This document shows, one piece after another, positions 7,508-43,689 of a stretch of DNA of 48,293 nt; positions within the stretch are counted from its first letter, which is position 1; the number at the start of each line of letters is the position of its first letter. The notes under the pieces are model-generated. The model worked only from the letters and a program-made list of their open reading frames with translations. It had not been told where the DNA came from and ran no database searches. The stretch is from a virus: the IMG/VR virus record IMGVR_UViG_3300009431_000520, positions 1 through 48,293 of that record; one strand, given 5' to 3'. The position numbers were made by a program, and so were the translations under genes.

Positions 7508-7861
7508 CTATCTCCCTTCTTGTATCTCTTCCATATGTATCTTCATATGTTTACTTCTATCAATTAATTCGAGATTTTCTATCCTATTGTCTAACTTATT
7601 GCCATTAATATGATGTATAATCTCTGTTTGAGTAAGTTCTCTACCAAGATACTCCTCAAATATTAACCTATGTTCTGCTTCAACATCACTCTTTACAGTA
7701 AATATATATCTATAACCATCTTTAATATAAACTCCGCCTCTCCAATTCGGGCACTTCTCTCTTTTTCTACCAACCATCCATTTACCATAACCTCTTTCAA
7801 TGGCTCTTTTCCTTATGGCTTCTCTATGTTCTGGCGTTCTAATATAACTGCCTGTTCCCAT
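7508..7861 (-). CDS. HNH homing endonuclease (117 aa)
   Basis: Contains EHRLIFEEYLGRELTQTEIIHHINGNKLDNRIENLELI, shown here only as its two parts: the AEHR strand and the HHINGNKxDNRxENL core of free-standing HNH homing nucleases (histidines at about residues 83-84, Asn at 93-97). A GGAG site lies 8 nt before the ATG. It interrupts the tail module, and 105 nt upstream of it carry no gene. Such genes are selfish and usually dispensable. Certain as an HNH protein; target unknown. Confidence 0.9.
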   Translation of the reverse strand: MGTGSYIRTPEHREAIRKRAIERGYGKWMVGRKREKCPNWRGGVYIKDGYRYIFTVKSDVEAEHRLIFEEYLGRELTQTEIIHHINGNKLDNRIENLELIDRSKHMKIHMEEIQEGR

Positions 7862-16646: not shown

Positions 16647-16883
16647 TTAGCCTGCAAAATGTTGAGAGTAATCTAAAATACCACTCAACTTCTGCATTAC
16701 GTCAGATTTAGGACTTTCTCCTATTTCTTCTTCTAAGATACTTAATAATGTCATATATGGAAAATTAGCTTCGTAATTATTGAACTTAGTATGTATTCTT
16801 GATGTAAAGTCATCTATTCTTTCAATGGCTTCTATATTGTCTATAGATATACTAAATCCTTGTTTAATTTCAAGAAATCTAAT
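16647..16883 (-). CDS. Hidden gene with apparent AUU start (78 aa)
   Basis: The minus strand from 16883 to 16647 is an uninterrupted 78-codon frame reading (M)RFLEIKQGFSISIDNIEAI and on to LSGILDYSQHFAG, then TAA. No ATG, GTG or TTG occurs at its front; the codon a suitable distance behind a GAGAGGTG ribosome site is ATT, and it overlaps the TAG of the split HNH gene as ATTAG. The composition looks like a real phage protein. AUU is a rare but known start. Alternatively the HNH gene's arrival destroyed the original start. Confidence 0.55.
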   Translation of the reverse strand: MRFLEIKQGFSISIDNIEAIERIDDFTSRIHTKFNNYEANFPYMTLLSILEEEIGESPKSDVMQKLSGILDYSQHFAG

Positions 16884-18567
16884 TTTTACTCACCTCTCTA
16901 TACTCTTTTAATGTCTTATTATGTTTTCTACTATTACAACTACGATGAGCAACAGCCAAATTCTCATAATTATTGCTCCCACCACGACTTAGTGGCATTT
17001 TGTGTTCAAGGCTATCTTTCCCAAATTCTATAGACTTATCACAAAGATAACAAGTTAATGTTCCATATTTCTTAATGTTATCTTCATAAAGAAGTTGAAT
17101 AGTTTGCTTTTTAAGTATTCCTCCACCTTTTTTTAAAGATTGCCTTACTTGATTTGCCATCTTCTTTTTGTTCATTTCAACAGTTCTGACGAGACGAAAA
17201 CCGTAATCGTTGAAATGACGGCCCGGATCAGTGCGGTGACGACAAGCAGAGCGAAAGTACTCGTCACCATAGTAGTGGTCCCAGGAACCGCCGCGCAACA
17301 CACGGTAATCCGCCTTGCTAGTGTTAAGTGGATCTTTATATTTTTCACCTTCTTTATAAAAGCTGTCACTATACCAGTCGATACACCATTCCCAGACATT
17401 ACCGATCATACCGTACAATCCCCATTGGTTTGGTTTCTTTTGCTTTACTGGCTGGGCCGACTTATTGTCCTGTGATCCTTTATTTTGAATAGCAAAATCA
17501 TCTATTTTATCTATATCTTTATCCCAGTAATAAGTTGTATCCGTCCCTGCTCTAGCTGCGTACTCCCATTCGGCTTCGGTCGGGAGACGATATAATCTTG
17601 CTTTTCTGTTTTTAAAAGCATATTGTAAATAGGCCTCCGCATCCAGATCTTTAATCGCCTCTTTAACATCACTGGTAATATCTTCCGATAAAAGAGATAG
17701 CTGTTTGCAGTAATCTACCGCTTCATACCAGTTGATCCTATCTGCCGGCGCATTTTCATCTTCAGCGTAAAAGCCATCCTCATACGGATGTTTTTTTATT
17801 ATTGCCAACAGCTGTTTCTGCGTTATCGCTGTTTCAGCGAACTGGACCGCACCGACTGTTACCTGATGCGACGGATTATCATCTTTATCCTCTACACCGC
17901 CCATCGTATAAGTGCCTCCCGGCAGCTGGATCATCGTAAGGCCGGCGATAGGCTCGGTGTATGATTCAAAATCGGCTACTACCGTTGGAATATTTACCCC
18001 ATCTACTTCTCTTAATGACTTTTCCGTTGCGGCGATCAACGCATCCGCGCTATCCAGCCGTTTTTGATAGGCTTTAAGTGTTTTCGCTAACTCTTTTTTG
18101 GGCAAGCCAAGTGTTTTCTTCTTCTCCATAGAAACAGCTAGCGCATCCCGCTTTGCTTTGATTGCCTCAAGCGTAGACTGTTTTTCGCCAACCGGCATTG
18201 TTTCCAGCCTAGTGCTCAATGAATTATATTTAGAATTATATTTATATGCCATCTTCTTTTTAGGACTTCTTCTATACCAATCTTTCTGATATTTATTCCT
18301 GTATACTTTATCAGAAAGTATTCTTTTTCTTCTTCCATCAATCCAATTATTGGCATTTTCACCAACGGCAAATCTATCATGACACTTTCTACATCTTTTA
18401 GCTTTACGAGTTGAAGTTGGATTACCACAATCTAAGCATTTATTTTTTCCTTTAATTCTTCGAATACCAGAACATTTCGGACTACAACAAAATTGCTTCT
18501 TTGCTGATGGAACAGTTCTAAACTCAATTCCACAAATCTCACAATTTTTAAAGTAGCCTGTTTTCAT
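16879..18567 (-). CDS. HNH endonuclease split by an FGE-sulfatase/C-lectin domain with a DGR-type variable region (562 aa)
   Basis: Residues 1-102 form the zinc-finger N-terminus of an HNH nuclease (CEIC, CCSPKC, CLDC, CRKC). Residues 499-562 are its catalytic end (CYLCDKSIEFGKDSLEHKMP, then LSRGGSNNYENL and CNSRKHN). Between them sits a 364-residue foreign block: a coiled coil (about 118-190) and a formylglycine-generating-enzyme-like C-type lectin domain (LTMIQLPGGTYTMGG, RLPTEAEWEYAARAG, GNVWEWCIDWY, VLRGGSW, GFRLVR). The block is bounded by a 15-bp direct repeat coding KKKMA; removing one repeat unit restores an in-frame 198-residue HNH protein. Several stretches of the block are visibly richer in GC than the flanks. 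The lectin fold is the usual DGR target fold. Catalysis by the FGE part is unlikely to be its role here. Whether the fusion is expressed and stable is unknown. Confidence 0.85.
   Translation of the reverse strand: MKTGYFKNCEICGIEFRTVPSAKKQFCCSPKCSGIRRIKGKNKCLDCGNPTSTRKAKRCRKCHDRFAVGENANNWIDGRRKRILSDKVYRNKYQKDWYRRSPKKKMAYKYNSKYNSLSTRLETMPVGEKQSTLEAIKAKRDALAVSMEKKKTLGLPKKELAKTLKAYQKRLDSADALIAATEKSLREVDGVNIPTVVADFESYTEPIAGLTMIQLPGGTYTMGGVEDKDDNPSHQVTVGAVQFAETAITQKQLLAIIKKHPYEDGFYAEDENAPADRINWYEAVDYCKQLSLLSEDITSDVKEAIKDLDAEAYLQYAFKNRKARLYRLPTEAEWEYAARAGTDTTYYWDKDIDKIDDFAIQNKGSQDNKSAQPVKQKKPNQWGLYGMIGNVWEWCIDWYSDSFYKEGEKYKDPLNTSKADYRVLRGGSWDHYYGDEYFRSACRHRTDPGRHFNDYGFRLVRTVEMNKKKMANQVRQSLKKGGGILKKQTIQLLYEDNIKKYGTLTCYLCDKSIEFGKDSLEHKMPLSRGGSNNYENLAVAHRSCNSRKHNKTLKEYREVSKN
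17155..17169. repeat. 15-bp direct repeat, downstream copy at the insert boundary
   Basis: TGCCATCTTCTTTTT occurs here and at 18247-18261. The spacing is exactly 1,092 bp, or 364 codons. The repeats coincide with the two edges of the foreign domain inside the HNH gene, as expected for a target duplication or for recombination between short matching sequences. Confidence 0.9.
17203..17280 (-). other. DGR-type variable region (VR), 26 codons
   Basis: Residues 430-455 of the split HNH protein lie between RGGSW and GFRLVR, the exact place of the variable segment in FGE-type targets of diversity-generating retroelements. Twenty-four of the 26 codons end in C or T and none ends in A, the footprint left when AAY template codons are mutated at their adenines to NNY. 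Residues are D, H, Y, G, C, R, T and N at the lectin-surface positions. No template repeat or reverse transcriptase is found in the window, so any diversification would need one elsewhere, or the VR is a fossil. Confidence 0.75.
18247..18261. repeat. 15-bp direct repeat, upstream copy at the insert boundary
   Basis: Second copy of TGCCATCTTCTTTTT (see 17155-17169). On the coding strand it reads AAAAAGAAGATGGCA, giving KKKMA at residues 103-107 and again at 467-471. Confidence 0.9.
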
Positions 18568-18617: not shown

Positions 18618-18941
18618 CTAAAATCCTCCTTCCAGTCCCTTATACTCAGGTTTATTAAAGTTTACACCCTTTTTCTCCATGAATTCAAGTTGCCTGCCCG
18701 ACAATTTTACTTTTCCCTTCTTTGAACCCATATTTACCTCGGAAAGGAACTGTTCAGTGTCTTTATCTATCTTATAGGGCTTTCTACGCCTTTCTATCGC
18801 TTTTTCGGCTAAAGCATTACCTTTTTCCTGCGAAACAAGCCCTCTTCTCTTCATTTCCTCATTATATTGTCTTTTAGTAGTAATATACTTGCCTAATGCA
18901 CGATTATAGTGCGAAATATCCTTTTTCGCTATAATTTCCAT
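18618..18941 (-). CDS. Basic helical protein (107 aa)
   Basis: A 107-residue charged protein (ALAEKAIERRRKPYKIDKD, then KGKVKLSGRQLEFMEKKG). It overlaps the end of the portal gene by one base and precedes the microprotein. Position after portal suggests a head assembly or portal accessory role. No family recognised. Confidence 0.65.
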   Translation of the reverse strand: MEIIAKKDISHYNRALGKYITTKRQYNEEMKRRGLVSQEKGNALAEKAIERRRKPYKIDKDTEQFLSEVNMGSKKGKVKLSGRQLEFMEKKGVNFNKPEYKGLEGGF

Positions 18942-21961: not shown

Positions 21962-23465
21962 ACCTCTTCTTGTCGGGCTTGTTCATTTTTATGGCTTGTT
22001 TACGCCACCACTCGAATTCGTCGTCTTTCTCTTCGACGATCTTCTTCTGTGTCTTAGGATACTGAAGAAGCTGGACAAGACCTTGCAGGGCATCAGGTAA
22101 GTCATCGTGTGCACCTGACGGAAAACGGAGAAGCTGGTGTTCTAATTCACCCATGTTTCGTCGGTGGTAAATAGAGTGTTGTGCATATCTGGGTTCTAAC
22201 CTCGTCAGAACACGCTGGACTTTGTCAGTATCCCAGAGGAGTGGTTTAAAGAGCAACCACCTATTTCTCCGTCGCATAGCTTGTTGCATAAGAAACTGCA
22301 TTACCTTCTCGAGCTTCGCCTTCTCCCACCCTATTGGAACAGAAGTGCCAGTAAGAGCTCTCATACGTTCTTCCATCGAGAACAGTATCTCCTCCATCTC
22401 ATGGGGTCTCAAACCTTTCTTGCAGATGTAACTCTCTATCAATAGGTCTGACTGTGGAGTAAGAAAAGCAGGTAATACGACGGAGAAATCACTTTCTCTC
22501 TTTTCTTCCCACGCTAAATCACAAGATATAGCAGCCTTGCACTCCCTGAGGGGATACTTGGCTACTATCCTTCCCTCGTCGAAGAGTATAGCTTCTAAGT
22601 TCTCTATTGTCCAGTAACGGAAGTCCTCTCGGTGGAACTTCCTCATAGCCCCAGCGACGGGGTCATTCTGGTATTCTTTGGCAAATACGGAGGGTTTCTC
22701 TCTCGAGAGGCGTTTAAGGTCCTCAACAGACCACTTATCCTCCCATAAGGATATCTCTTTCCCGTCAATCTCGTTCAAAGCTCGATAAAAGCCCTTCTTA
22801 TACTCGGGGTAGTGTTCTTTTGATACAAGTTTAGCCATTAAAGAGTCATCATGTAAGATAGTCCCTATGAAGATATACTGACACTCCTTTTTATCTCCGG
22901 CGGGTATCAGGGCATCGTCGAACTCTGACTGAAGGTTCTCTCGTCGTTCTCTTGAACGCACCATGACGTCATCTTCGAGGTCATCACCAATAATCAAATC
23001 AGGTCTATATGGACCAAACTTCTCTCCTCTCACCGACCCTATCTGTTCATGCCCTTTACAGAGAACTCTTGTCTTAAACCCGTCGGGGTGGACAAAGATT
23101 GTGTCCCCCTCTGAGTCCTTCTCGAACTTAATACCATAGTGGTCTATAAGCATCTGATTATTACGAAACTCGTCTTTAATAGTCCCTAAAGCCCCGGCTG
23201 CCTTTGCATAAGTATTCATTGTAATAACGATGAAGTGCTTCTTCTTATTAGCAATACAGTGGGCTGGATAGAGAAAAGTCAGTAGAGTAGACTTAGAGGA
23301 CTCACGGGGAGAGGCTATAGAAAGCCAGCGTGTCTCCAGGCACTTATCTAAGATTTCAAGATGAAAATCAGGTGTTGGGAGGGAAAAGTGCTTAGGGCAG
23401 TAAAACTTACCCCAATGAAAAGGGTGGTAAGAGAGTTCTTCTAATAGGTTCTTGTAGTTATCCAA
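21903..23465 (-). CDS. terL: Terminase large subunit (520 aa)
   Basis: ATPase: a Walker A variant SPRESSKST at residues 52-60 and Walker B PDLIIGDDLEDD at about 155-166. Nuclease: the RNase H-like start ISCDLAWEEK near residue 310 and the late HDDLPDALQGL acidic motif. Size and order match phage packaging motors. It starts 8 nt inside the end of an HNH gene and 480 nt from the small subunit stop. It would pump DNA through the portal and cut it. Confidence 0.92.
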   Translation of the reverse strand: MDNYKNLLEELSYHPFHWGKFYCPKHFSLPTPDFHLEILDKCLETRWLSIASPRESSKSTLLTFLYPAHCIANKKKHFIVITMNTYAKAAGALGTIKDEFRNNQMLIDHYGIKFEKDSEGDTIFVHPDGFKTRVLCKGHEQIGSVRGEKFGPYRPDLIIGDDLEDDVMVRSRERRENLQSEFDDALIPAGDKKECQYIFIGTILHDDSLMAKLVSKEHYPEYKKGFYRALNEIDGKEISLWEDKWSVEDLKRLSREKPSVFAKEYQNDPVAGAMRKFHREDFRYWTIENLEAILFDEGRIVAKYPLRECKAAISCDLAWEEKRESDFSVVLPAFLTPQSDLLIESYICKKGLRPHEMEEILFSMEERMRALTGTSVPIGWEKAKLEKVMQFLMQQAMRRRNRWLLFKPLLWDTDKVQRVLTRLEPRYAQHSIYHRRNMGELEHQLLRFPSGAHDDLPDALQGLVQLLQYPKTQKKIVEEKDDEFEWWRKQAIKMNKPDKKRYVYGRKEKGHKIPAKISFR

Positions 23466-23805
23466 TGGTTAATAAACCTCTATGTATAAGTCTATGGCAG
23501 TTAGGACAACTAGACATCATATTCTCCATATTATAAGTTCCAATTGGGTCTTTTCTATGAACATCACAAGGACCTTCCCAGCCACATATCATGCATTTTG
23601 TATCTAAACCTCTATCTTTAAACTTCTCTTTTGATTTACGTCTAGAAGCTGGAGACCTTTCCATTCCATAACGTTTAGTATGGTGTTTATCGCATAAAGA
23701 AGCTCTATATATCTTGTTCCTTATACGCTTACTCCATCTTCCTAAGTTATTACAACCCTCAATTCTACAAATCTTGCGGGAATCAAAAATTTTTATGTTT
23801 TCCAT
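23458..23805 (-). CDS. HNH endonuclease (115 aa)
   Basis: Zinc and HNH features: CRIEGCNN, LCDKHHTKRYG, CMICGWEGPCDVHRKDPIG and CPNCHRLIHRG. It lies between the two terminase genes with its own promoter (23827-23855) and an AGGAGG site. HNH proteins beside terminases sometimes assist packaging cleavage; a homing element is the other reading. Confidence 0.88.
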   Translation of the reverse strand: MENIKIFDSRKICRIEGCNNLGRWSKRIRNKIYRASLCDKHHTKRYGMERSPASRRKSKEKFKDRGLDTKCMICGWEGPCDVHRKDPIGTYNMENMMSSCPNCHRLIHRGLLTIG

Positions 23806-32066: not shown

Positions 32067-32119
32067 TGATGAAAGACATAATCTACAAAGGCATGGGTAA
32101 ATGCAACCCGATCTCTTAA
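32066..32119 (+). CDS. Possible 17-residue coupling peptide
   Basis: An AAGGAG site and ATGATG start, coupled to the gene before, give MMKDIIYKGMGKCNPIS, ending inside the start of the methyltransferase gene, which lacks its own ribosome site. It may be translated only to deliver ribosomes to that gene. Confidence 0.35.
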   Translation: MMKDIIYKGMGKCNPIS

Positions 32120-32940
32120 AACTTAAACCGCTTAAAAATCTTCAGCAAGTATGGAAGGAGTATCTTACCTTCTTTAATCAGTATGATGAGTGGAAAGAGT
32201 ATCCCTGTCCTATTTGCAAAGCCTTTGAAAGCACAAAAGAGCTGTTTACCATTGATAGGTTTTCATACAGAGAATGCTTTAATTGTGGCACAATTTACAA
32301 TTCTCCTCAGTTTGACATACCTTTGGACTATTCTATATACCGAGATAAATTGGTAAAACCGGCAAGAAGAATGAGACAAAAACTTGTCGAAGTAAAATAT
32401 AGTCAGATAACCCATTATAGCAAGAACAAAGGCACTCTGTTAGATGTGGGTTGTGGGTTAGGTATATTAGTAGAGGTATTTATTAAGCATGGCTGGTCTA
32501 CAGTAGGAATAGACCCTTGCTTAAATACCACATTTGAAGAATATAAAACAAGAAGAAAATTTGATGTTATTACCTTCTTCGGAGTGCTTGAACACGTCAA
32601 TAACCCATTAGAGCTATTACTAAAGGCTAAATCCCTGCTCCGTAAAGGGGGTATTATAGTCTACGAAGCTCCTTCTGCTGACTGCTTCCTGATGGAATAC
32701 CTTTTGAAATACCCCTTCTCTCCTTACCGGTTCATAGAACATGGTAGGCACTTGTCTTTCTTTTCAAGGAAAACTATACACTATCTATGCGATAAAACAA
32801 AGATGAAAATAGTGGACTTAAAGACAGTAGGATTTGACTTACAAACCATTACTCTTACCAGCGAAAAAGAAATAATACAAATGCAGGATATATTAAATAA
32901 AACTTTACAGGCAGATCACTACAGGGTGTATGTTAGATAA
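32101..32940 (+). CDS. SAM methyltransferase with N-terminal zinc ribbon (279 aa)
   Basis: N-terminal CPIC and CFNC pairs form a zinc ribbon; the class I SAM domain follows with LLDVGCGLGILVEVF (motif I), GIDP (motif II) and FDVITFFGVLEHVNNP (motif IV). This is the plan of sugar or polysaccharide C-/O-methyltransferases of the Methyltransf_23 type. First gene of the envelope cassette, overlapping the PseB-like gene by 11 nt. Confidence 0.8.
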   Translation: MQPDLLKLKPLKNLQQVWKEYLTFFNQYDEWKEYPCPICKAFESTKELFTIDRFSYRECFNCGTIYNSPQFDIPLDYSIYRDKLVKPARRMRQKLVEVKYSQITHYSKNKGTLLDVGCGLGILVEVFIKHGWSTVGIDPCLNTTFEEYKTRRKFDVITFFGVLEHVNNPLELLLKAKSLLRKGGIIVYEAPSADCFLMEYLLKYPFSPYRFIEHGRHLSFFSRKTIHYLCDKTKMKIVDLKTVGFDLQTITLTSEKEIIQMQDILNKTLQADHYRVYVR

Positions 32941-33841
32941 GACCATTCTTTTGACAGGCGGCACAGGAACTTTCGGAACAGCTTTTACTCAATCCATCTT
33001 ACAATACAATCCAAAGAAATTAATAATCTTCAGCCGGGATGAATATAAGCAATCCCTAATGGTTAAAGACTTCCCTCAAGATAATATTCGCTTCTTTATC
33101 GGTGATGTAAGGGATAGGGAACGCCTTGGCAGAGCCTTTGAGGGGGTAGACTATGTAGTCCATGCTGCTGCCCTTAAACAAGTTCCTGCACTTGAATACA
33201 ATCCCACAGAAGCAGTTAAGACTAATATAGACGGAGCAAATAACATAATAAGTGCTGCGATAGAAAAGGGAGTTAAGAAGGTAATAGCTCTCTCGTCGGA
33301 TAAAGCAGTTAATCCTATAAACTTATATGGGGCTACGAAATTAGTGGCGGAGAAGCTTTTCCTTGCAGCTAATGCTTATGGAGGTAGGAAAGTAGAGTTC
33401 TCTGTTATCAGATACGGAAATGTAATAGGTTCAAGAGGCAGTGTGGTATCTTACTTTTTAGACTTGGCAAGAAAGCAAATAAAGGAATTCCCCATTACTC
33501 ACCCTGACACTACACGCTTCTGGCTATCCAAATGGCAAGCTGTGTATTTAGTGATAGAGATGCTGAGTATGTCTTGTAAGGGGGAGATATGGATACCGGA
33601 GATACCTTCCATGAAAATCATAGATGTAGCTAAAGCAATAGACCCTGACTGTGAGTTTAAGATAATAGGCTTGAGGAAAGGGGAGAAACTGCACGAAACT
33701 CTTATCTCCAAAGCAGAGGGAGATGAATTTACATCCAATAAAAATAAATGGTGGCTGACTAAAAAAGAATTCTGGAGGCTAACAAATGAAAACTGTTGCA
33801 ATAATTCAAGCTCGCTTAACGTCTACACGATTTCCTCGTAA
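32930..33841 (+). CDS. pseB: UDP-GlcNAc 4,6-dehydratase, PseB-like (303 aa)
   Basis: NAD-binding TGGTGTFG at 9-16 and the hallmark ALSSDKAVNPINLYGATK (catalytic region) place it in the inverting 4,6-dehydratase family. It would convert UDP-GlcNAc to the 4-keto-6-deoxy sugar that begins pseudaminic acid and related sugars. The last 20 residues are read over the next gene and may not be needed. No PseC or PseI homolog follows, so the host or other genes must complete a sugar. Confidence 0.88.
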   Translation: MLDKTILLTGGTGTFGTAFTQSILQYNPKKLIIFSRDEYKQSLMVKDFPQDNIRFFIGDVRDRERLGRAFEGVDYVVHAAALKQVPALEYNPTEAVKTNIDGANNIISAAIEKGVKKVIALSSDKAVNPINLYGATKLVAEKLFLAANAYGGRKVEFSVIRYGNVIGSRGSVVSYFLDLARKQIKEFPITHPDTTRFWLSKWQAVYLVIEMLSMSCKGEIWIPEIPSMKIIDVAKAIDPDCEFKIIGLRKGEKLHETLISKAEGDEFTSNKNKWWLTKKEFWRLTNENCCNNSSSLNVYTISS

Positions 33842-34337
33842 GATATTGGCAAAGATAGGGGATAAGACAATGCTACAGTGTGTGATAGATGCAGCAAGAA
33901 TGGTATCTGACATTGATAAAGTTGTTGTTGCTATCCCTGCAGGACAGAAAATACCATTTAAAGGAGCAGAAAAATTTGAAGGGTCTGAATTAAATGTTTT
34001 ATGTAGATATTATTATTGTGCTGAAAAATATGCTGCAAATAGAATTATAAGAATTACTGCTGATTGTCCAGCTTTAAAACCCATCACAATAATAACAGCA
34101 ATAGGTTTATATGAAGCATATAATTTTCCCTATTTAATTTATTCGCCTTTAAATGGATTAGATGTAGAAGTTTTTAGCTTTGAAATGCTGAGAGAAGCAT
34201 GGAAAAATTCCTTTGATTTATATGATTTAGAACACGTTACACCATATATGAAAAGAAAAACTAAACTTTCAGTGGACACAAAAGAAGATTTGGAGGTGGT
34301 GAAAGCATGGATAGCTGGAAAAGGACTTGTGAGATAA
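33786..34337 (+). CDS. Cytidylyltransferase, SpsF-like (183 aa)
   Basis: AIIQARLTSTRFPRKILAKI is the nucleotide-binding signature of acylneuraminate cytidylyltransferase-like proteins (SpsF/KdsB relatives). ITADCPALKP holds the next motif. At 183 residues the domain is somewhat short. It would activate a sugar acid or similar compound with CMP. Overlaps the aminotransferase gene by 31 nt. Confidence 0.8.
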   Translation: MKTVAIIQARLTSTRFPRKILAKIGDKTMLQCVIDAARMVSDIDKVVVAIPAGQKIPFKGAEKFEGSELNVLCRYYYCAEKYAANRIIRITADCPALKPITIITAIGLYEAYNFPYLIYSPLNGLDVEVFSFEMLREAWKNSFDLYDLEHVTPYMKRKTKLSVDTKEDLEVVKAWIAGKGLVR

Positions 34338-35488
34338 TCCCTTCCGGAGTGCAGACTATGTCAAAAAGACCCTCTCAGTATGCCGAGAACTGCCCGAAGA
34401 AGATAGAATATGCAAGTGGCTGTCGTGTCTATAGTGGAAAAGATAAGGAATACATAGACTATACCTGTGCTTTAGGGGCGATAAGTTTGGGCTATGGGTT
34501 TCCTCCTGTTGATTACGCAGTAAGTAGCCAGATACAGAAAGGTATACTCTATGGACTATCCTCCCCGAAAGAAGCTGTATTGGCTCAAAAGCTCATTGAT
34601 TTAATCCCCTGTGCTGAAATGGTGAGGTTTCTTAAAACAGGCAGCGAGGCTTGCTCAGCAGCAGTTAAAATAGCTAAGTCATATACTGGAAGAAACGGTA
34701 TAGCCTCATATGGCTATCATGGCTGGCACGAGTGGGAAAACAGGCACGAATTTGAATATAATGACCTAAATCTGCTTACGGAGATACTTAAATATAAAAA
34801 GGTGGCAGCAGTTATTATAGAACCTTATGTCTACGATCCACCAGCAAATGGTTACCTGATGGATGTTATAAACTTAGCCCACAAATATGGTGCGTTGGTA
34901 ATATTTGATGAGATAGTAACCGGTTTTAGGACTCTTGGATGGTCAGCTCAGAAATTCTTTAAAGTAATCCCTGACTTAACTACTCTTGGGAAGGGCATGG
35001 GTAATGGCTACCCTATCTCAGCAGTAGTGGGTAAGAAGAAGTATATGAAGGAATTAGAGAAGAAATGTTTTGTATCCTCTACATTTGGCGGAGATTTAAT
35101 AGGTATTAGTGCCGCTATAGCCACTATTGACTATATGAAGAAGCACGACGTAATAAACCATATATGGGCTATGGGAACAGATATTAGAGAGTGGTTTAAT
35201 ATAACTACAAGAGAATTCATGTTGCCAGTGTGCTGTAAAGGCTATGCTTGCCGGACTACCTTTGAGTTTCCCCTTGAGGAAGCAAAGCAACTATTTTGGA
35301 GAGAGTGCTTAAAAAGAAGGGTGTTATTTGGTAAAGCCCAGTTTATTTCCTATTCCCATAAAGTAGAGGAAATTGATACCACAATTAAAGTAATACAGGA
35401 AGCCTTAATGAAAGTAAAGGAGGTTTATGGTCACTGCGATAGTCCCGGTAAAAACAAAGTCAGAAAGACTGCCAGAAAAAAATCTTAG
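34307..35488 (+). CDS. Class III aminotransferase (GSA-aminomutase-like) (393 aa)
   Basis: LKTGSEACSAAVKIAKSYTGRNGIA, VIFDEIVTGFR and TTLGKGMGNGYPISAVVG, with the PLP lysine in GKGMGNGYP, are clear class III motifs. In surface-sugar clusters such proteins often accompany SpsF-like cytidylyltransferases, as here. It may aminate a keto sugar or another carbonyl compound. A first start at 34307 overlaps the previous gene; IPSGVQTMSK follows. Confidence 0.85.
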   Translation: MDSWKRTCEIIPSGVQTMSKRPSQYAENCPKKIEYASGCRVYSGKDKEYIDYTCALGAISLGYGFPPVDYAVSSQIQKGILYGLSSPKEAVLAQKLIDLIPCAEMVRFLKTGSEACSAAVKIAKSYTGRNGIASYGYHGWHEWENRHEFEYNDLNLLTEILKYKKVAAVIIEPYVYDPPANGYLMDVINLAHKYGALVIFDEIVTGFRTLGWSAQKFFKVIPDLTTLGKGMGNGYPISAVVGKKKYMKELEKKCFVSSTFGGDLIGISAAIATIDYMKKHDVINHIWAMGTDIREWFNITTREFMLPVCCKGYACRTTFEFPLEEAKQLFWRECLKRRVLFGKAQFISYSHKVEEIDTTIKVIQEALMKVKEVYGHCDSPGKNKVRKTARKKS

Positions 35489-36071
35489 ATACTTTATAGA
35501 CTGCCCTCTCTATGAGCATAAGTTACGCCAGATACAAAAAGCTCCATTTGACCAGATCGTAGTATCCTCCGAAAGCAAGGAAGTGCTGAAAGTTGCCGAG
35601 AAATATAATTGTATCCCCCACCTTAGAGACCCTAAATACTCCACCCCGGATATACCTATGAGTGAGGTATATAAGTATCTGGCTTCAGTAGTAGGAACAG
35701 GAGATATAGCTTGGGTAAATGTCAATAATCCTTTAGTAGAGGAAGCAGAATATAAACAAGCTATTGCAGCATGGAAATTTATTAAGAATGATAATGATTG
35801 CCTTCTATCGGTAGATAGCCTGCAAAGATATATCTACTGGCAGGGTAAGCCCTTAAACTGGATACCGGAAGCACACCCTAAGAGCCAAGATTTGGGAGGG
35901 TTGTGGGCTTTGAACTTTGCAATAAATATCCGCCCAAAAGAAGATGTTGTTAAAACAGGGTGTTTCGTAGGGGCAAATCCACATTTCCTTGAAATAGATA
36001 AGTATAAAGCTACTAAAGTAGACTATGCAGAAGATTTAGAAATTTGCAGATTGTTATGGAAAAGAAATTAG
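35427..36071 (+). CDS. CMP-sugar / acylneuraminate cytidylyltransferase-like (214 aa)
   Basis: IVPVKTKSERLPEKNLRYFIDCPLYEHKL is the N-terminal CMP-binding motif; later VNVNNPLVEEAEY and KSQDLGGLWALNF match NeuA/PseF relatives. It starts 61 nt inside the aminotransferase gene. A second CMP-transferase beside the first suggests two CMP-activated products, one of which could be a phosphonate rather than a sugar. Confidence 0.8.
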   Translation: MVTAIVPVKTKSERLPEKNLRYFIDCPLYEHKLRQIQKAPFDQIVVSSESKEVLKVAEKYNCIPHLRDPKYSTPDIPMSEVYKYLASVVGTGDIAWVNVNNPLVEEAEYKQAIAAWKFIKNDNDCLLSVDSLQRYIYWQGKPLNWIPEAHPKSQDLGGLWALNFAINIRPKEDVVKTGCFVGANPHFLEIDKYKATKVDYAEDLEICRLLWKRN

Positions 36072-36100
36072 TAAGCGAAGTAAGAAAAGGAGGAAGATTT

Positions 36101-36367
36101 ATGAGAAAGGTATTAGTAGTAGTCATTATGGCTACAATGCTATTTACCGTTCCTGCGTTTGCTTTGTTTGATGATAATTCGACAAATCAACAGCAACAGC
36201 AAGGAATAGCAGATAGTGGTAATTCAAACAACTCGAATAGTAATTTAGCAACAGGTGGTGCTGGTGGCAATGCCTGTCAAGGGCAAGGACAACAGCAAGG
36301 ACAGCAACAAGGACAAGGGCATTTTCGAAGAAAGTTACCAGTCATACAATCAAAGCAGGAAAAATGA
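36101..36367 (+). CDS. Secreted Gln/Asn/Gly-rich protein (88 aa)
   Basis: A strong AAAGGAGG site precedes the ATG. Residues 1-21 are a signal peptide (RKVLVVVIMATMLFTVPAFA, cleavage after AFA). The mature part has a Gln run, an NSNNSNSN stretch and a QGQQQGQQQGQGH repeat. Exported low-complexity proteins are unusual in phages. It may coat or stick to the cell surface. Confidence 0.65.
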   Translation: MRKVLVVVIMATMLFTVPAFALFDDNSTNQQQQQGIADSGNSNNSNSNLATGGAGGNACQGQGQQQGQQQGQGHFRRKLPVIQSKQEK

Positions 36368-36373
36368 AAAGCT

Positions 36374-36544
36374 ATGAGTAAGCTGCCTATAATGGTTAAA
36401 TTATTGTTATGGCTCACAAGAAAGCATAAATGGCATAAAGATTGGTTTGGTTGTTGGATATGTGAAATAAGATTAAAAAATAACCCAGATAAACCGAGGA
36501 TTAATTATGAACAAAATGAGGGAAGTAGTAATCAAAATATCTAA
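36374..36544 (+). CDS. Small basic protein (56 aa)
   Basis: Trp- and Lys-rich N-terminal half (LLLWLTRKHKWHKDWFGC) and a polar tail. It overlaps the next gene by 38 nt and has only a weak ribosome site. Function unknown. Confidence 0.45.
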   Translation: MSKLPIMVKLLLWLTRKHKWHKDWFGCWICEIRLKNNPDKPRINYEQNEGSSNQNI

Positions 36545-36773
36545 CATAGCTGATTTATATGCACCTCAACGCTATCATACAGTAGACCAAGCCCTCCACG
36601 CCCTATGGCGAGCGGTGGAGGAAAGTTTGCCTGAGGAAAAGAAAAGATACTTCGTTGTTGAAGCACAAGATGGTGGACATTGGGTAGAATTAAACACCAT
36701 AGAATATGGTCATAATGAAGCTCTCAAAGATGTCCGAGAGAGGCCGAAGAGGCTGTTTGTGGGGGAGAAATGA
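36507..36773 (+). CDS. Conserved-type small protein (88 aa)
   Basis: A soluble alpha/beta protein (YHTVDQALHALWRAVEESLP). No family recognised. It couples to the gene after it by a 4-nt overlap. Confidence 0.55.
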   Translation: MNKMREVVIKISNIADLYAPQRYHTVDQALHALWRAVEESLPEEKKRYFVVEAQDGGHWVELNTIEYGHNEALKDVRERPKRLFVGEK

Positions 36774-36904
36774 GGATACCTTGTAGATGGCGATTACATA
36801 GACCAAAAGAGATGGTTAGGTATCTTCTTAATGCTTTTGGGTTGTTAGCCAACGACGGATGTAAAGAGTTCAACACGGATAATTGGTTTGGATTAAAGAA
36901 ATAA
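36770..36904 (+). CDS. Small basic protein (44 aa)
   Basis: GGGGGAG site and ATGA overlap; the product is a short basic protein with two Cys residues. Family unknown. Confidence 0.5.
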   Translation: MRIPCRWRLHRPKEMVRYLLNAFGLLANDGCKEFNTDNWFGLKK

Positions 36905-36934
36905 AGTTACTTTGCTTCGCTTACTAATTTAATT

Positions 36935-37804
36935 ATGAATATACTCGTAACCGGTGGTTCAGGCTTTTTAGGTAGTCATATAGTAGAGGCATTGTGTAAG
37001 TGTGGACAAAAGTTGGTTTTGTTCGACAAAAATCCCTCCGCCGTCGGAGAGGGGTTTTACGAAATGGTGGTTGGAGATATTTTAGACCGAAAAAAGCTTT
37101 TCAGAGCCTTGAGGGGAATTGATGTTGTTTTCCACCTTGCAGCCCTTGCTGACATAAATAAAACATGGGACAACCCAAGAGAAACTATGAAGGTCAATGT
37201 GTTAGGCACTACCAATGTTTTAGAGGCAGCAAGATTAAATGGTGTGAAGAGATTTATATTTGCCTCAACTTTATATTGTGATAGCAGGTCAGGTTCTTTG
37301 TATCGTGTCAGCAAGCAAGCCGGGGAGTTGTTAGTCAAAGCCTACCATGAACGCTGTGGTATGGAGTATATTATTTTAAGGTTTGGAACTCTCTACGGCA
37401 CACGAGCTGGAGAAAATAATAGCATCAGAAATTTGCTTAAACAGGCTTTGTCAGGTAAAATAGAGTATTATGGAACAGGTAATGAAGTTAGAGAATATAT
37501 ACACGCCAAAGATGCTGCCCAAATCTGCACTACATTACTCGGAGATAAATATGTCGGAGAAACCCTTGTCCTAACGGGGTATCATAGGTTCAAGCTGACA
37601 GAAATGTTGGATATGATAAATGAAATCCTCGGCAACAAAGTAAAGATAGAATACCACCCCAAAGATAATCGTGCCCACTACGAGCAAGTCCCTTATTCTT
37701 ATACACCACACAATTTAAAACGAGTAGTCCCCGAAACCTATCAGGATATGGGGGGAAGTTTAGTAGAAATAATGGAGGAGATAAATGAAAAAAGTATATT
37801 TTAG
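36935..37804 (+). CDS. NAD-dependent sugar epimerase/dehydratase (289 aa)
   Basis: ILVTGGSGFLGSHI is the NAD-binding GxxGxxG, HLAALADINKTWDNP the substrate loop, and YRVSK the catalytic YxxxK of extended SDRs. Resembles UDP-glucose/GlcNAc 4-epimerases and 4,6-dehydratases. Substrate cannot be fixed. No obvious ribosome site lies in front of the ATG at 36935. Confidence 0.85.
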   Translation: MNILVTGGSGFLGSHIVEALCKCGQKLVLFDKNPSAVGEGFYEMVVGDILDRKKLFRALRGIDVVFHLAALADINKTWDNPRETMKVNVLGTTNVLEAARLNGVKRFIFASTLYCDSRSGSLYRVSKQAGELLVKAYHERCGMEYIILRFGTLYGTRAGENNSIRNLLKQALSGKIEYYGTGNEVREYIHAKDAAQICTTLLGDKYVGETLVLTGYHRFKLTEMLDMINEILGNKVKIEYHPKDNRAHYEQVPYSYTPHNLKRVVPETYQDMGGSLVEIMEEINEKSIF

Positions 37805-37973
37805 TAATTTTAGTAAAAAAGAAATATTTGAAGATAATAAACCTATAAAATTAAGGAAAGACGAGGTGTTTGTAACATTCATGAAATTCAAAAGACGGTT
37901 ATTTGTTATGACAACTCAACGGATATATGAAATAGTAGAAAACAAGGAGAAAAAGTATGGCTTACGGAAATAG
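37785..37973 (+). CDS. Small basic protein (62 aa)
   Basis: Lys/Phe-rich strands (VFVTFMKFKRRLFVMTTQRI) overlapping the epimerase and the reductase genes. A GGAGG-like site and intact frame support it. Function unknown. Confidence 0.55.
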   Translation: MKKVYFSNFSKKEIFEDNKPIKLRKDEVFVTFMKFKRRLFVMTTQRIYEIVENKEKKYGLRK

Positions 37974-38814
37974 AATTTTAGTTACGGGTGGTCAAGGTAT
38001 GCTCGGCTCTGCAATAGAAGAAGTATTTGCTAAAGACTTTACTTGTATCTTTACCGACATCAATGAATTTGATGTAAGAAAGTATCGTAAATTTATTAAG
38101 GATATACCAAGTCCTAACTACATACTGCATTTAGCAGCAGAAACTAACCTTGAGTTCTGTGAAAGCTATCCAATGTATGCTTACCATACAAATACAATAG
38201 GCACTTTTAATATGGTAGAGATAGCTAAACAATTAGATATTCCTATCATCTATATGTCTACAGCAGGGGTATTTGGTAATACTAAAGCTGAATATTTTGA
38301 TGAGAATTCTACTCCTGACCCCATAAATACTTATGGAAGAAGCAAATACTACGGAGAGATAGCTGTCCAAGCCTACCCTAAGCACTGGATATTCCGTATC
38401 TCTTGGGCGTTTGGTGGCGGTGCAAGAGATAGGAAGTTTGTAATGAAAATCTGTAAGCAGTTAAGTGCAGGCAAACAATTCATTGAAGCCATAGATAGTA
38501 AATCTGGTAGCCCTTCCTATACCAGAGACGTTGCAGGAATTATCTATGGCTTCATTAAAGAAGAAAAGCCCTATGGGCTGTATCATATACCAACAGGTAG
38601 CGGAACAAGATATGAGGTTGCTTGTGAGATAGTAAAATTATTGAATTCTATTACGCCAATATATAAAGCAAAAGAAGAACAGTTTCTTGAATATATAGCC
38701 ACAAGACCTAAGTGTGAGGTGCTTAAAAGTGTTAAAGGTGTGGAAACGAGGGACTGGAAAGAGGCACTAAAAGAATATATAGATGAACTTGTTGCTAATA
38801 AATCTATCTCTTAG
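37957..38814 (+). CDS. rmlD: dTDP-4-dehydrorhamnose reductase-like protein (285 aa)
   Basis: ILVTGGQGMLGSAI, LHLAAETNLEFCES, STAGVFGNTKAEYFDEN, YGRSKYYGE and FRISWAFGGG are RmlD motifs. It would reduce a 4-keto-6-deoxy sugar nucleotide. With the 4,6-dehydratase-like and epimerase-like genes it could complete a deoxysugar. Its end overlaps the radical SAM gene by 32 nt. Confidence 0.85.
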   Translation: MAYGNRILVTGGQGMLGSAIEEVFAKDFTCIFTDINEFDVRKYRKFIKDIPSPNYILHLAAETNLEFCESYPMYAYHTNTIGTFNMVEIAKQLDIPIIYMSTAGVFGNTKAEYFDENSTPDPINTYGRSKYYGEIAVQAYPKHWIFRISWAFGGGARDRKFVMKICKQLSAGKQFIEAIDSKSGSPSYTRDVAGIIYGFIKEEKPYGLYHIPTGSGTRYEVACEIVKLLNSITPIYKAKEEQFLEYIATRPKCEVLKSVKGVETRDWKEALKEYIDELVANKSIS

Positions 38815-40111
38815 ACCTGAGAGCTTCAAAGCTATCTTTCCTATTGGTTTGGGATACATAGCCACAGCTATCAAGCAAGCAGGGTTTAAGTTTGACCTGT
38901 TGGATATGAATGTCCATAAGTTTAAAGCCCAAAATAAATTAAGGGAAACGCTGAAGAAGAAATATGATGTGATTGCCTTTGGTTGTATTGTTACCGGCTA
39001 CAAGATGGTCAAAGAAATCAGTAAGATTATCAGAGAGGAAAATAAAGATGCCATTATTATCTGCGGTAACTCTGTGGCTTCTTCTATCCCAAGGATACTC
39101 TTAGAGAAAACAGAGGTGGACATAGCTGTAGTAGGTGAGGGAGATGTAGTCATAGTAGACATACTTAGAAACAAACTCTTCGCAAGAAAATATTCCTACG
39201 CAATAAAAGAACCTATTAAAAACCTTGATGACTTACCCATGCTGGACTGGGATTTGTTTGATATGAGACAGTATATAGACAGCAACAAGACCTCAATACC
39301 CGAACCCCACCCGGTAGGGTATGCTGCCATGAATGCCATGCCTATCAACAGTGCCAGAGGGTGTCTATTTAAATGCACCTTCTGCTATCAAGTGTTCTGT
39401 AATAACGTCTATAGATACAGGTCTACTAAGTCAATAGGCAAGGAAGTAGACCACCTAAAGAAGAAGTATGGTATTAATTATGTAACCTTTTATGACGACC
39501 TGACTTTATTCTCTCGTCGTCGTGCTAATGACTTCGCTGATATGATGACAGGAAAAGATGTCTACTGGACAGCTTGTTGCAGGGCTGATCTGTTTACAGA
39601 AGAGGACAAGAGATTACTCAAGCGATTAAAGAAAGCTAACTGCATCTCTTTAGGCTACTCATTAGAGAGTGCCAACGCTGACATACTTAAATCCATGCGG
39701 AAGAAGATTTCTCTGGAAGGATTTAGCAGGCAGAAAAGGTTGTTAGATGAGGCAGGCATAGCTACACTGACCTCTCTCGTCATAGGTTACCCCCAAGAAA
39801 CGGAGGAGACTTTAAATGAAACATTTAATTTCCTGTATGATAATAACATTTATCCTTCTGCTGGGTATCTGCTACCTCAGCCTGCTACACCTATGTATGA
39901 TTACGCAAAGCAAAATGGCTACATACCCGATGAGGAGAAATATCTCTTGGCTATGGGAGACAGGCAAGACCTCCGATTAAATATGACCTCAATGAGTGAT
40001 GAAAAGATGGAAGGTATAGTCCATAAACACCTGAGGCGTATAAGAGATAAGTTAAAATTAGATTTAGACGATGAACATTTGTTGAAAACTAAAGTAGTTC
40101 GTGGGAGGTAG
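38783..40111 (+). CDS. B12-binding-type radical SAM enzyme (442 aa)
   Basis: Residues 1-130 form a Rossmann-like cobalamin-binding domain (PIGLGYIATAIKQAGFKFDL, CGNSVASSIPRILLEKTEVD). The radical SAM cluster motif is CLFKCTFC, followed by YVTFYDDLTLF and YSLESANADILKSMRK. This is the class B methyltransferase/BchE plan. It stands directly before the PEP mutase-like gene; in fosfomycin and phosphinothricin pathways such an enzyme methylates a phosphonate intermediate. A lipid or sugar substrate is the alternative. Confidence 0.85.
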   Translation: MNLLLINLSLRPESFKAIFPIGLGYIATAIKQAGFKFDLLDMNVHKFKAQNKLRETLKKKYDVIAFGCIVTGYKMVKEISKIIREENKDAIIICGNSVASSIPRILLEKTEVDIAVVGEGDVVIVDILRNKLFARKYSYAIKEPIKNLDDLPMLDWDLFDMRQYIDSNKTSIPEPHPVGYAAMNAMPINSARGCLFKCTFCYQVFCNNVYRYRSTKSIGKEVDHLKKKYGINYVTFYDDLTLFSRRRANDFADMMTGKDVYWTACCRADLFTEEDKRLLKRLKKANCISLGYSLESANADILKSMRKKISLEGFSRQKRLLDEAGIATLTSLVIGYPQETEETLNETFNFLYDNNIYPSAGYLLPQPATPMYDYAKQNGYIPDEEKYLLAMGDRQDLRLNMTSMSDEKMEGIVHKHLRRIRDKLKLDLDDEHLLKTKVVRGR

Positions 40112-40112
40112 T

Positions 40113-40847
40113 ATGATACTTGTAAGTGCGGGCGATAGTGTCGGTGCTCGTTTAGTAAAGGAGGCAGGTTTCGATGGGATATGGGTTAGTGGTTTTGAAG
40201 CTTCTGCTCGGCTTGGGTTGCCTGATAATGGGAGCATTACTCTTTTACAAATGTTGTCTATCACAGCACCGATTGTTGGTGCTACAGACCTTCCTGTCTA
40301 CGTGGATGTTGATGTTGGGTATAGGGATTTTGCTACTACTGTTAGAAAGTTTGAAGAAATAGGTGCAGCAGGTGTGTGTATAGAAGATGTAGAACCTGCC
40401 TATAAACAGAATTCTTTATGGGGTGATAAAGTTCCGTTGATGGATATGAAAAAGTTTGCTGCCCAGCTAATGGTAAATAGAAAGATAAAAATAATAGCAA
40501 GAACAGAAGCATTAGTAAGAGGATACGGAGAGGAAGAAACCAGAAAAAGACTTGGCTGTTACCACAAGGCAGGTGCTGATATATTATTTCCTCACTCAAG
40601 AACAGTTCCTCTGTGGATGAAAGATGATAGATATTATGCCATAGCCCCTACCAAATTCCCTTACTATACCAATACCAGATTAGAATATTTGGGATATGAA
40701 ATGGTTATCTGGGCAAACCAGACGGAGAGAACAAAGATAAAAGCAGTAAGAGAAATGCTTGCTTCTCTTAAAAAACATGACCGTATGTTAGAAGCAGAGA
40801 AAGACCTTTGTGTTACTTTAGATGATATGAAAGGACTGACAGAGTGA
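40113..40847 (+). CDS. PEP mutase-like protein of the isocitrate lyase superfamily (244 aa)
   Basis: ATG at 40113 behind GGGAGG. WVSGFEASARLGLPDN and YVDVDVGYRD carry the Asp residues that bind magnesium. The PEP mutase loop, usually EDKxxxxxNS, here reads EDVEPAYKQNS: Lys is replaced by Val and there is one extra residue, though the Lys and Asn of KxNS remain. The two following genes are a phosphonopyruvate decarboxylase pair, so C-P bond formation from PEP is the best guess; a related lyase or hydrolase is possible. Confidence 0.75.
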   Translation: MILVSAGDSVGARLVKEAGFDGIWVSGFEASARLGLPDNGSITLLQMLSITAPIVGATDLPVYVDVDVGYRDFATTVRKFEEIGAAGVCIEDVEPAYKQNSLWGDKVPLMDMKKFAAQLMVNRKIKIIARTEALVRGYGEEETRKRLGCYHKAGADILFPHSRTVPLWMKDDRYYAIAPTKFPYYTNTRLEYLGYEMVIWANQTERTKIKAVREMLASLKKHDRMLEAEKDLCVTLDDMKGLTE

Positions 40848-41164
40848 AAGTCGGTATCCCCTACACTGGCTGTAAACACCAGAGTGAAGTTCCAGTAACA
40901 AGGGAAGATGAGGCTATTGCCTTTGCTGTGGGAGTGGCACTCGGTGGCGGTGAGTGCCAAGTTTATATGGACAACAGTGGGTTAGGGCAGTGCGTAAACA
41001 TAATATCCACCCTACTACGCCCCTACCAGATCACAATACCTTTGGAGGTGTCTGTAAGGCATGAACCTGAACACCATAAATACATGGGGAAGATTACAAA
41101 ACCTTTAATGGAGTTATTAGGATATGCAGAAAGCAATCCAAGAAATAATGTCAAAAGTAAATAA
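40844..41164 (+). CDS. Phosphonopyruvate decarboxylase, alpha/N-terminal subunit (106 aa)
   Basis: GTG start coupled to the upstream TGA. REDEAIAFAVGVALGGGECQVYMDNSGLGQCVN is the N-terminal pyrimidine-binding domain of TPP decarboxylases, with the conserved Glu. It is only 106 residues, shorter than the usual half. Sulfopyruvate decarboxylases are also split in two, so that reaction is the alternative, but PEP mutase next door favours phosphonopyruvate. Confidence 0.75.
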   Translation: MKVGIPYTGCKHQSEVPVTREDEAIAFAVGVALGGGECQVYMDNSGLGQCVNIISTLLRPYQITIPLEVSVRHEPEHHKYMGKITKPLMELLGYAESNPRNNVKSK

Positions 41165-41594
41165 CGAGTGTGTAATCACTTCCTGTGGTTACATCTCAAG
41201 GGAGGTATATAATATTAAAGATAGGGATAGGAATTTTTATAATCTTGGTGCTATGGGTAGCTCTCTTGCTATTGGGCTGGGATTAGCCTACCAAAGACCC
41301 GACCTTAAAATAATAATTATTCAAGGAGATGGGGCTACATTAATGAGTTTAGGCACAATGGTATTACAACATCATTTAGAGTTACCTAATATAAGACTTT
41401 ATATTTTAAATAATCATTCCCATGCCTCAACTGGTGGACAACCTACTTGCTTCCAAGCCTTAGGAGATTTTGAGCCAATGAAAAATCTTGAAATAATTAA
41501 CTGTGGAAAAGAATCCAATGCTCCACGCATACCATTAACCTGTAAACAGATAAAGGAACGCTTTATTGAAAGTATTCGCCTCAAAAAGAAGTAA
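41124..41594 (+). CDS. Phosphonopyruvate decarboxylase, beta/C-terminal subunit (156 aa)
   Basis: NLGAMGSSLAIGLGLAYQRP and IIIQGDGATLMSLGTMVLQ with later LNNHSHASTGGQP form the pyrophosphate-binding half of a TPP enzyme (GDG...NN). It overlaps the alpha gene by 41 nt in another frame, so the pair is a split version of a normally single 380-residue enzyme. Product would be phosphonoacetaldehyde. Confidence 0.8.
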   Translation: MQKAIQEIMSKVNNECVITSCGYISREVYNIKDRDRNFYNLGAMGSSLAIGLGLAYQRPDLKIIIIQGDGATLMSLGTMVLQHHLELPNIRLYILNNHSHASTGGQPTCFQALGDFEPMKNLEIINCGKESNAPRIPLTCKQIKERFIESIRLKKK

Positions 41595-42042
41595 GAAAAT
41601 AGCAGACAAACTGGTCATAGCAGTGGGGGGTGGTTCTACATTAGACTTGGCGAAGATATATGCCAAGAGGCATGATAAAGTATGTCTCGCCATCCCCACT
41701 ACCGGCTCTGGTGCTTCTGAAACCTCCCACGCTGTGGTGTGGGGGAAGAAGAAGATTAACATAAAGACAAAGAAACCTATCAGTATCTCTCCTCCGATAA
41801 AAATTAAGTTAGACAAGACTACCAGAAGAAATACTGTCTACGATATATTAGGACACATAGTAGACTACCTAAATGTCTGCTCTGATAATGAGCTCATTGA
41901 AGTAGGCAGATACGCAGGACAGTTAATAGAAAAACACCCAACGAACCTTACTCATCCAGCTTCTTACCCCATGACCCTAAAGGGAGTGCCACATGGTGAA
42001 GCGGTGGGTAGGGTTCTTTGTAAGTGTATTAAGGAGTTATGA
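41566..42042 (+). CDS. Miniature iron-type alcohol dehydrogenase, PhpC-like (158 aa)
   Basis: TTG start behind AAGGA. VGGGSTLDLAK (NAD), PTTGSGASE, YDILGHIVD (metal Asp and His) and GVPHGEAVG (metal His) all match iron-containing alcohol dehydrogenases, but the protein is 158 residues instead of about 380. The region between the motifs is cut down and both ends are missing. Next to decarboxylase genes it would reduce phosphonoacetaldehyde to 2-hydroxyethylphosphonate. Activity in so small a form is unproven. Confidence 0.7.
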   Translation: MKVFASKRSKKIADKLVIAVGGGSTLDLAKIYAKRHDKVCLAIPTTGSGASETSHAVVWGKKKINIKTKKPISISPPIKIKLDKTTRRNTVYDILGHIVDYLNVCSDNELIEVGRYAGQLIEKHPTNLTHPASYPMTLKGVPHGEAVGRVLCKCIKEL

Positions 42043-43115
42043 GGGTATTCGTATTTGGTATAAGAGGTTTCCCTTTCATTGGCGGTGGTGCTGAAAGACA
42101 CTCAGAGGAATTGTATCCTCGCTTAGTTAAGAGGGGATATGATGTTACTGTCCTTGCCAGAACAGTTCATCTTGAGGGCTGGAAAGGTATTAAATTTAAA
42201 AAGATAAGGTATCATAAAAACCCTCGCTTAGAAACTATGACCCACTCCATCCTCTGCTCTCTGTATTGCATTAAGAAGAAACCAGATGTAGTCCATATCC
42301 ATAATATGGGGGCTTGTTTATTAGTCCCCCTGCTTGTATTGATGAATTTAAGAGTAGTCCTTACCTTGCATAGTTTTAATTATCTGCACAAGAAGTGGAA
42401 TTTCTTTGCAAGATTTATTTTAAACACCTGTGAGAATTTAGGTATAAACTTCTCCCACCGAATAATAACAGTATCAAAAGATATGGTGGAATTCCTACGC
42501 AATAAATACCAGAGGACACTGCCCCTTAACTATATCCCTAATGCTATTGATAAAGCAGAACATATCCCGGCAGGGTTTACCCTGAAGAAGTATAAGCTGA
42601 GGGAGAAGAAGTATGCTTTAGCTGTGGGCAGATTAACACCAGAGAAAGGGTTTGATTGCTTGGTAAAAGCATATAACTTAGCTAAGCCAGATTTTAAATT
42701 AGTTATAATAGGTGATGGTGATAGTGAATATGCAAAGGAATTAAGGCGTAATAAATCTGAGGACATTATCTTCACAGGGTATTTAAATGGGAAAGATTTA
42801 GCTGAGCTCTACTCCAATGCTGGTCTAATGGTGCTGAGTTCCTTTAACGAAGGATCGCCATTAGTATTCCTTGAAGCCCTAAACTATGGCATACCAATTA
42901 TAGCCAGTAATATCAGGGCATATAAATATATCCCACTCCCAAGCTACAGATATTATATTGTTGATGACATCGATGAACTGGCACTTAAAATGAAAGAGTT
43001 GTTTAATGAAGACTTCACTCCCGAAGAAAAGCATTACCATAAAAACCTCTTAGAGAACGAATATAACTGGGATAAGGTTACTAAGCAAACCCAAAATATA
43101 TATGACTCAGTCTAA
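42039..43115 (+). CDS. GT4 glycosyltransferase (358 aa)
   Basis: GGGAERHSEELYPRLVKRGY at the N-terminus, a Rossmann ALAVGRLTPEKGFDCLVKA, and the EX7E motif in NEGSPLVFLEALNYG mark a full-length GT-B retaining enzyme. It would add a sugar to a growing glycan. Coupled to the dehydrogenase by ATGA. Confidence 0.9.
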   Translation: MRVFVFGIRGFPFIGGGAERHSEELYPRLVKRGYDVTVLARTVHLEGWKGIKFKKIRYHKNPRLETMTHSILCSLYCIKKKPDVVHIHNMGACLLVPLLVLMNLRVVLTLHSFNYLHKKWNFFARFILNTCENLGINFSHRIITVSKDMVEFLRNKYQRTLPLNYIPNAIDKAEHIPAGFTLKKYKLREKKYALAVGRLTPEKGFDCLVKAYNLAKPDFKLVIIGDGDSEYAKELRRNKSEDIIFTGYLNGKDLAELYSNAGLMVLSSFNEGSPLVFLEALNYGIPIIASNIRAYKYIPLPSYRYYIVDDIDELALKMKELFNEDFTPEEKHYHKNLLENEYNWDKVTKQTQNIYDSV

Positions 43116-43689
43116 AGTATCTGTCATAATTCCAGCGTATAACAAAGCCGACTACACTGTAGAGGCAGTGAAGAGTGTGCTTAATCAAACCTACCCTAAT
43201 ATAGAGTGCATTGTAGTTGACGATGGGTCTACCGATGATACTTATGATAAACTCTTTCCGTATATAGATACCGATATAAAATATATATTCCAACCAAACA
43301 AAGGTGTTTCTGTTGCTCGCAATAAAGGAATAGTCAGATCAGAGGGTGAATATATTGCCTTCCTTGACTGTGATGATAAGTATTTAAAGCATAAAATATT
43401 AATATCCCTCAACGAAATGAAAAGACAAGAGGTAGATATGATATATAACAGTGCTGTATTAATAAACCAAGAGGGAAAACAGCAAGGCTGGTATCGCCCT
43501 AAAAGACATAGCCTACTCTTTCGTAATTCTATTATGAACTCTGTGGTAATTAAAAAAGAAGTCTTTGATAAGGTAGGGTTATTCGACGAGGAATTATTCA
43601 TCTGTGCTGACTGGGATATGTGGTTAAGGATAGAGGAACACTTTAAAATAGGATACATCGATTGTCCACTTACTTATTACAGGATATGA
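43102..43689 (+). CDS. GT2 glycosyltransferase (195 aa)
   Basis: VSVIIPAYNKADYTVEAVKS and VDDGSTDDTY for the donor site, FLDCDDKYL as the DxD region, and a final ADWDMWLR. It is a minimal GT-A enzyme without the usual C-terminal extension. Overlaps its neighbours at both ends. Confidence 0.88.
   Translation: MTQSKVSVIIPAYNKADYTVEAVKSVLNQTYPNIECIVVDDGSTDDTYDKLFPYIDTDIKYIFQPNKGVSVARNKGIVRSEGEYIAFLDCDDKYLKHKILISLNEMKRQEVDMIYNSAVLINQEGKQQGWYRPKRHSLLFRNSIMNSVVIKKEVFDKVGLFDEELFICADWDMWLRIEEHFKIGYIDCPLTYYRI

Follow-up and report, generated by a model that had tools for sequence, protein, structure and literature searches.

What is a lectin-fold domain doing inside an HNH endonuclease gene, and how did it come to be there? 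The question is raised by one gene in the head operon of a phage, in a window that comprises the whole of the 48,293-nucleotide viral record IMGVR_UViG_3300009431_000520. Our analysis makes it very probable that the gene is the product of a nested insertion, in which a protein of the formylglycine-generating enzyme (FGE)/C-lectin type, the type targeted by DGRs, was captured in frame into the linker of a mobile phage HNH gene.

The gene (16879-18567, minus strand) is a single open reading frame of 562 aa that runs for 1.7 kb without an internal stop (Table 1). The initial annotation had described it as N- and C-terminal HNH parts split by 364 codons that encode a coiled coil and a lectin domain. 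This description holds: the frame is open, Pfam matched both FGE-sulfatase and HNH (1.7e-8 for the latter) and no other domain, and the coiled coil corresponds to two long helices in the AlphaFold2 model. The direct repeat said to bound the block is also present as an exact match, with its two copies 1092 bp (364 codons) apart, start to start. At 15 bp it is the longest exact repeat within the ORF; a repeat of that length arose in none of 500 dinucleotide shuffles, 7 of which reached 14 bp.

Table 1. Positions of the HNH-FGE fusion, its parts and the adjoining head-operon gene in the window (aa, residues of the 562-aa protein).
Feature	Position	Strand	Remark
HNH N-terminal arm, aa 1-107	18247-18567	-	Zinc-ribbon type Cys pairs, NWIDGR motif, basic linker
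15-bp direct repeat TGCCATCTTCTTTTT, N-side copy	18247-18261		Reads KKKMA on the - strand
Inserted block, 364 codons, one repeat copy included	17155-18246	-	Missing from 39 HNH relatives
12-bp tandem duplication, GAATTATATTTA x2	18221-18244		Just inside the N-side junction
Helical hairpin / coiled-coil-like part, aa 126-189	18001-18192	-	AlphaFold2 helices 126-151, 157-189
FGE-sulfatase / C-lectin-fold domain, aa 211-461	17185-17937	-	Pfam PF03781, 1.7e-46
Putative variable region, aa 430-455, DHYYGDEYFRSACRHRTDPGRHFNDY	17203-17280	-	After GGSW, before GFRLVR
15-bp direct repeat TGCCATCTTCTTTTT, C-side copy	17155-17169		Exact match to N-side copy
HNH C-terminal catalytic arm and stop, aa 472-562	16879-17154	-	Pfam HNH, aa 506-551
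Small head-operon gene	16647-16889	-	Directly downstream of HNH and overlapping its stop; no usual start codon

Joined at one repeat copy, the outer parts (107 + 91 aa) do give the coherent 198-residue HNH protein that had been proposed, and it aligns with uninterrupted phage HNH proteins, gapless across the junction in the case of those from L181 and L188. It has a Cys-rich N-arm, a variable basic linker and a conserved IQxVYEDNIKKYGTLTC stretch followed by the HNH core. Residues 40-106 of the N-arm are 34% identical to the N-part of the uninterrupted protein in L181, and the C-arm is 52-71% identical to its phage relatives. The annotation had also called for a search for the uninterrupted protein in phage sequences. 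Single-sequence patterns matched no close relative of the 562-aa protein in viral contigs, nor of the 198-aa protein exactly as joined. Scanned with an alignment instead, the viral contigs yielded 46 loci, from which, with outliers left out, 39 non-identical proteins were used. None of these is interrupted, and the linker block is present in 0/39.

Summed over the same 39 relatives, local alignment scores favored the single-copy join (11475) over the interrupted protein (10711). Joins displaced by up to ~8 residues scored nearly equally; with so little conservation in the linker, homology locates the junction no more closely than about ±10 residues. Base composition sets the block apart from its surroundings: GC is 0.32 in the N-arm and 0.31 in the C-arm (GC3 0.19 and 0.22), compared with 0.44 in the block (GC3 0.43). 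The PF03781 domain itself was found in 0/21 related phage or HNH-bearing records. Together, this evidence, which is independent of the repeat, confirms that the block is an in-frame insert within an otherwise free-standing phage HNH gene. Both ends of the block are as AT-rich as the HNH arms: this applies to the first ~9 codons after the 5' repeat (YKYNSKYNS, which include the tandem duplication) and to the final ~6 codons preceding the 3' repeat. The foreign segment may thus fall slightly short of the full repeat-to-repeat distance.

The recipient gene is itself of the free-standing phage kind and probably mobile. Its relatives are located elsewhere in related phages (L181, L182) and occur also in contigs without the head genes of this phage. 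We further observed two copies of the family in a single contig, once for L190 and once for the contig that holds both L203 and L206, consistent with mobility. In the present phage the gene lies in the head operon, between the gene at 18618-18941 and the small gene at 16647-16889. Within the related phage group, which we reached through relatives of TerL and MCP, the small gene of L180 (8182-8439) comes immediately after the homologue of the 18618-18941 gene, with no HNH gene between them. Because the HNH gene is missing from the same site in L180, the insertion is nested, with FGE in HNH and HNH in the head operon. In the window the small gene reads GTA AAA ATT where its relatives begin MRF or MKF; at its boundary with the HNH gene it has apparently lost its start codon.

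We next consider what the block encodes. AlphaFold predicts a helical hairpin, with pLDDT ~90 over most of its length, followed by a confidently predicted C-lectin/FGE fold; no relatives of the helical part alone were found. The HNH parts of the fusion were modeled with low confidence (pLDDT ~35-55 across most of the C-arm), since the alignment contained FGE relatives only. When HNH and FGE relatives were aligned together, the two families came out misaligned, and they were therefore modeled separately. In the model of an uninterrupted relative, the C-terminal HNH part is confident, and the nearest structure is a Geobacter HNH nicking endonuclease (4h9d). For the block, the best match in the PDB, both by sequence (1.1e-27) and by fold, is Treponema denticola variable protein 1, TvpA (2y3c). 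We rejected an identity as a formylglycine-generating enzyme: the aligned catalytic positions are not Cys (compared with 6muj), and the block is thus not expected to have that activity. A bacterial source for the 364-residue block had been suggested. The nearest relatives are ~38-42% identical over the FGE part; in bacterial genomes the best matches reach ~36-42% over that part, and one genome has a shorter match at 50%. The donor was not found, and a search for it in 168 genomes from the phylum to which L008's genome belongs, run without a positive control, gave nothing at E <= 1e-50.

The initial annotation had called the domain a DGR target. This label is partly supported: by family and fold the block is of DGR-target type. 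The codon pattern may also fit: NNY codons, the kind that would derive from AAY, make up 24/26 of the putative variable stretch vs 143/322 elsewhere in the block (P 1.4e-6), and the bias persists after allowing for amino acids (P ~0.0009). The NNY fraction is nevertheless a poor discriminator, as five TR-matched variable regions (VRs) have values of 0.67-0.79 and other FGE genes reach 1.0. The machinery is where the claim fails for this phage. No reverse transcriptase (RVT_1) was found in the phage record at E <= 1, nor in any of 8 related phage records (0/8), and an adenine-tolerant search of the window found no template repeat (TR) for the putative VR. With neither RT nor TR in the record, DGR targeting is at most a matter of ancestry; and since the record is apparently complete (see below), the phage is, by these tests, unable to diversify the domain on its own.

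Adenine-directed variation is seen among relatives of the block. The bacterial relative L032 has TR/VR pairs with three VRs that differ by 12-16 adenine changes and no others, and L031 has a TR/VR pair with adenine-only differences. In L108/L109, an ungapped comparison gave 18 adenine and 10 other TR/VR differences, with an RT nearby. FGE-type genes with DGR-like variable ends also occur in viral contigs (L082-L160). An RT was present in 3/42 tested records holding FGE relatives, many of them fragments; FGE genes like the block thus often occur in viral contigs without RT, and DGRs that act in trans or have been lost may be frequent among viral FGE-type genes.

How might the fusion have formed? 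The recipient would be a free-standing, probably mobile HNH nuclease gene in the head operon, and the capture site the poorly conserved basic linker between its zinc-ribbon-like N-arm and its HNH catalytic domain. What was captured appears to be a nearly complete FGE/C-lectin-fold protein, helical hairpin and lectin fold included. Each KKKMA copy fits the adjoining HNH linker, which suggests that the repeat arose by duplication within the recipient; the capture would have left these 15 bp of linker sequence in two copies. The tandem duplication inside the N-side junction and the AT-rich block ends fit break repair or short-homology recombination, and the likely route is double-strand break repair or short-homology recombination that took up foreign DNA. 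The product would be a single 562-aa chain, its HNH domain still able to fold and its lectin domain serving as a passenger or as an extra binding module. The lectin itself probably comes from a DGR-diversified lineage and would not be diversified by this phage.

A stronger version of this scheme holds that the insert was selected as a functional module, on the grounds that it provides a new binding partner for the nuclease or for the virion, or that the lectin travels as the cargo of a homing nuclease. Several features would fit: the frame has stayed open over 1.7 kb, the HNH catalytic residues are intact (22/22 near-invariant HNH residues are retained in the fusion), the start is preceded by a Shine-Dalgarno-like GAGGG, and the lectin fold is predicted with high confidence. 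However, a recent neutral capture would look identical, and the fusion is a single instance, without a homologous pair for a selection test. We regard selection as possible but doubtful.

A related proposal is that a hypervariable-type ligand-binding module, lodged in the linker that separates DNA recognition from catalysis in a mobile nuclease, travels with the HNH gene, and that a host DGR may update the domain in trans; we think this unlikely. The narrower claim, that a DGR in the bacterial host or in a co-resident prophage continues to diversify the lectin domain in trans, is a shade less likely again. The adenine-only TR/VR pairs of L031 and L032 and the excess of NNY codons in the putative VR speak for it, as does a precedent in T. 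denticola, where FGE-type remote target genes are reported to lie far from the RT (PMC4891356). On the other side, the phage has no RT or TR, and a search of viral contigs for a TR-like pattern fitting the putative VR found none.

Could the fusion instead be an error of assembly, in which a short repeat brought two unrelated contigs together? The fusion is known from one genome only, a single metagenomic record, and its outer parts alone make a coherent gene. Yet both independent joins would need to have preserved the frame, and the k-mers usual in assembly are longer than the 15-bp repeat, which counts against such an error. In addition, positions 1-119 and 48175-48293 are identical (119 bp), as expected of a complete assembly, and an artefact therefore seems very improbable. 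The identical ends indicate that the record is probably complete, at 48,174 bp, and circular or circularly permuted. Least probable of all is a splicing element (an intein or a group I/II intron) or a transposon that duplicated 15 bp of its target: the exact direct repeat at both ends and the in-frame position within a gene are what such an element might leave, but the ORF holds only FGE and HNH domains and no transposase or splicing domain, there is no Rfam match anywhere in the window, and neither block end has inverted repeats.

The rest of the genome has features of its own. A second HNH gene (HNH_3, 2.9e-14) lies at 7508-7861(-), and a third, weak HNH-like gene at 23458-23805(-) adjoins the terminase. 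The region 32101-45020(+) is a glycan/nucleotide-sugar cluster with Polysacc_synt_2 (8e-91), two cytidylyltransferases, a class-III aminotransferase, epimerases, a B12-binding radical SAM protein, glycosyltransferases, methyltransferases and a weak choline-kinase match. The same cluster encodes a PEP mutase (40101-40847, 1.2e-36), and the combination of PEP mutase with cytidylyltransferase suggests a phosphonate-bearing glycan.

Returning to the in-frame capture, both parts of the fusion are of known kinds, and as far as tested their combination is new. Within the sensitivity of our searches, no second HNH-FGE fusion was found in phage records, in plasmid records (none covered 80% of the query) or in viral contigs; on DGR plus HNH, no paper among those searched describes such a fusion. 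The gene shows that a 364-codon domain can be accommodated, with the frame kept, in the basic linker of an HNH gene in a phage, and hints at how modules of variable proteins could pass from one genome to another. If active, the fusion would connect the spread of binding domains to mobile nucleases.

The closest systems each resemble one part of this arrangement. Free-standing phage HNH nucleases (PF01844; L181, L182, L188-L233) have the same basic linker and the same IQxVYEDNIKKYGTLTC stretch with its HNH catalytic part, along with a Cys-rich N-arm in several members and a scatter of sites and contigs, but only the fusion has a 364-codon block within the linker. Formylglycine-generating enzymes, including SUMF1, share the family profile (PF03781) and the fold of the block, which is missing both catalytic cysteines at the positions aligned with 6muj. 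TvpA, an FGE-type DGR target of T. denticola (2y3c), is similar in sequence, in fold and in its C-terminal RVLRGGSW...GFRLV stretch; the block differs from it in being embedded in a nuclease, without a gene of its own, in a phage without RT or TR. Finally, the ShiLan domain (PMC11855218), in which an out-of-frame HNH is inserted into a methylase, is likewise an HNH-connected, in-frame insertion in a phage enzyme gene. There, however, the HNH is the insert, whereas in this fusion it is the recipient.
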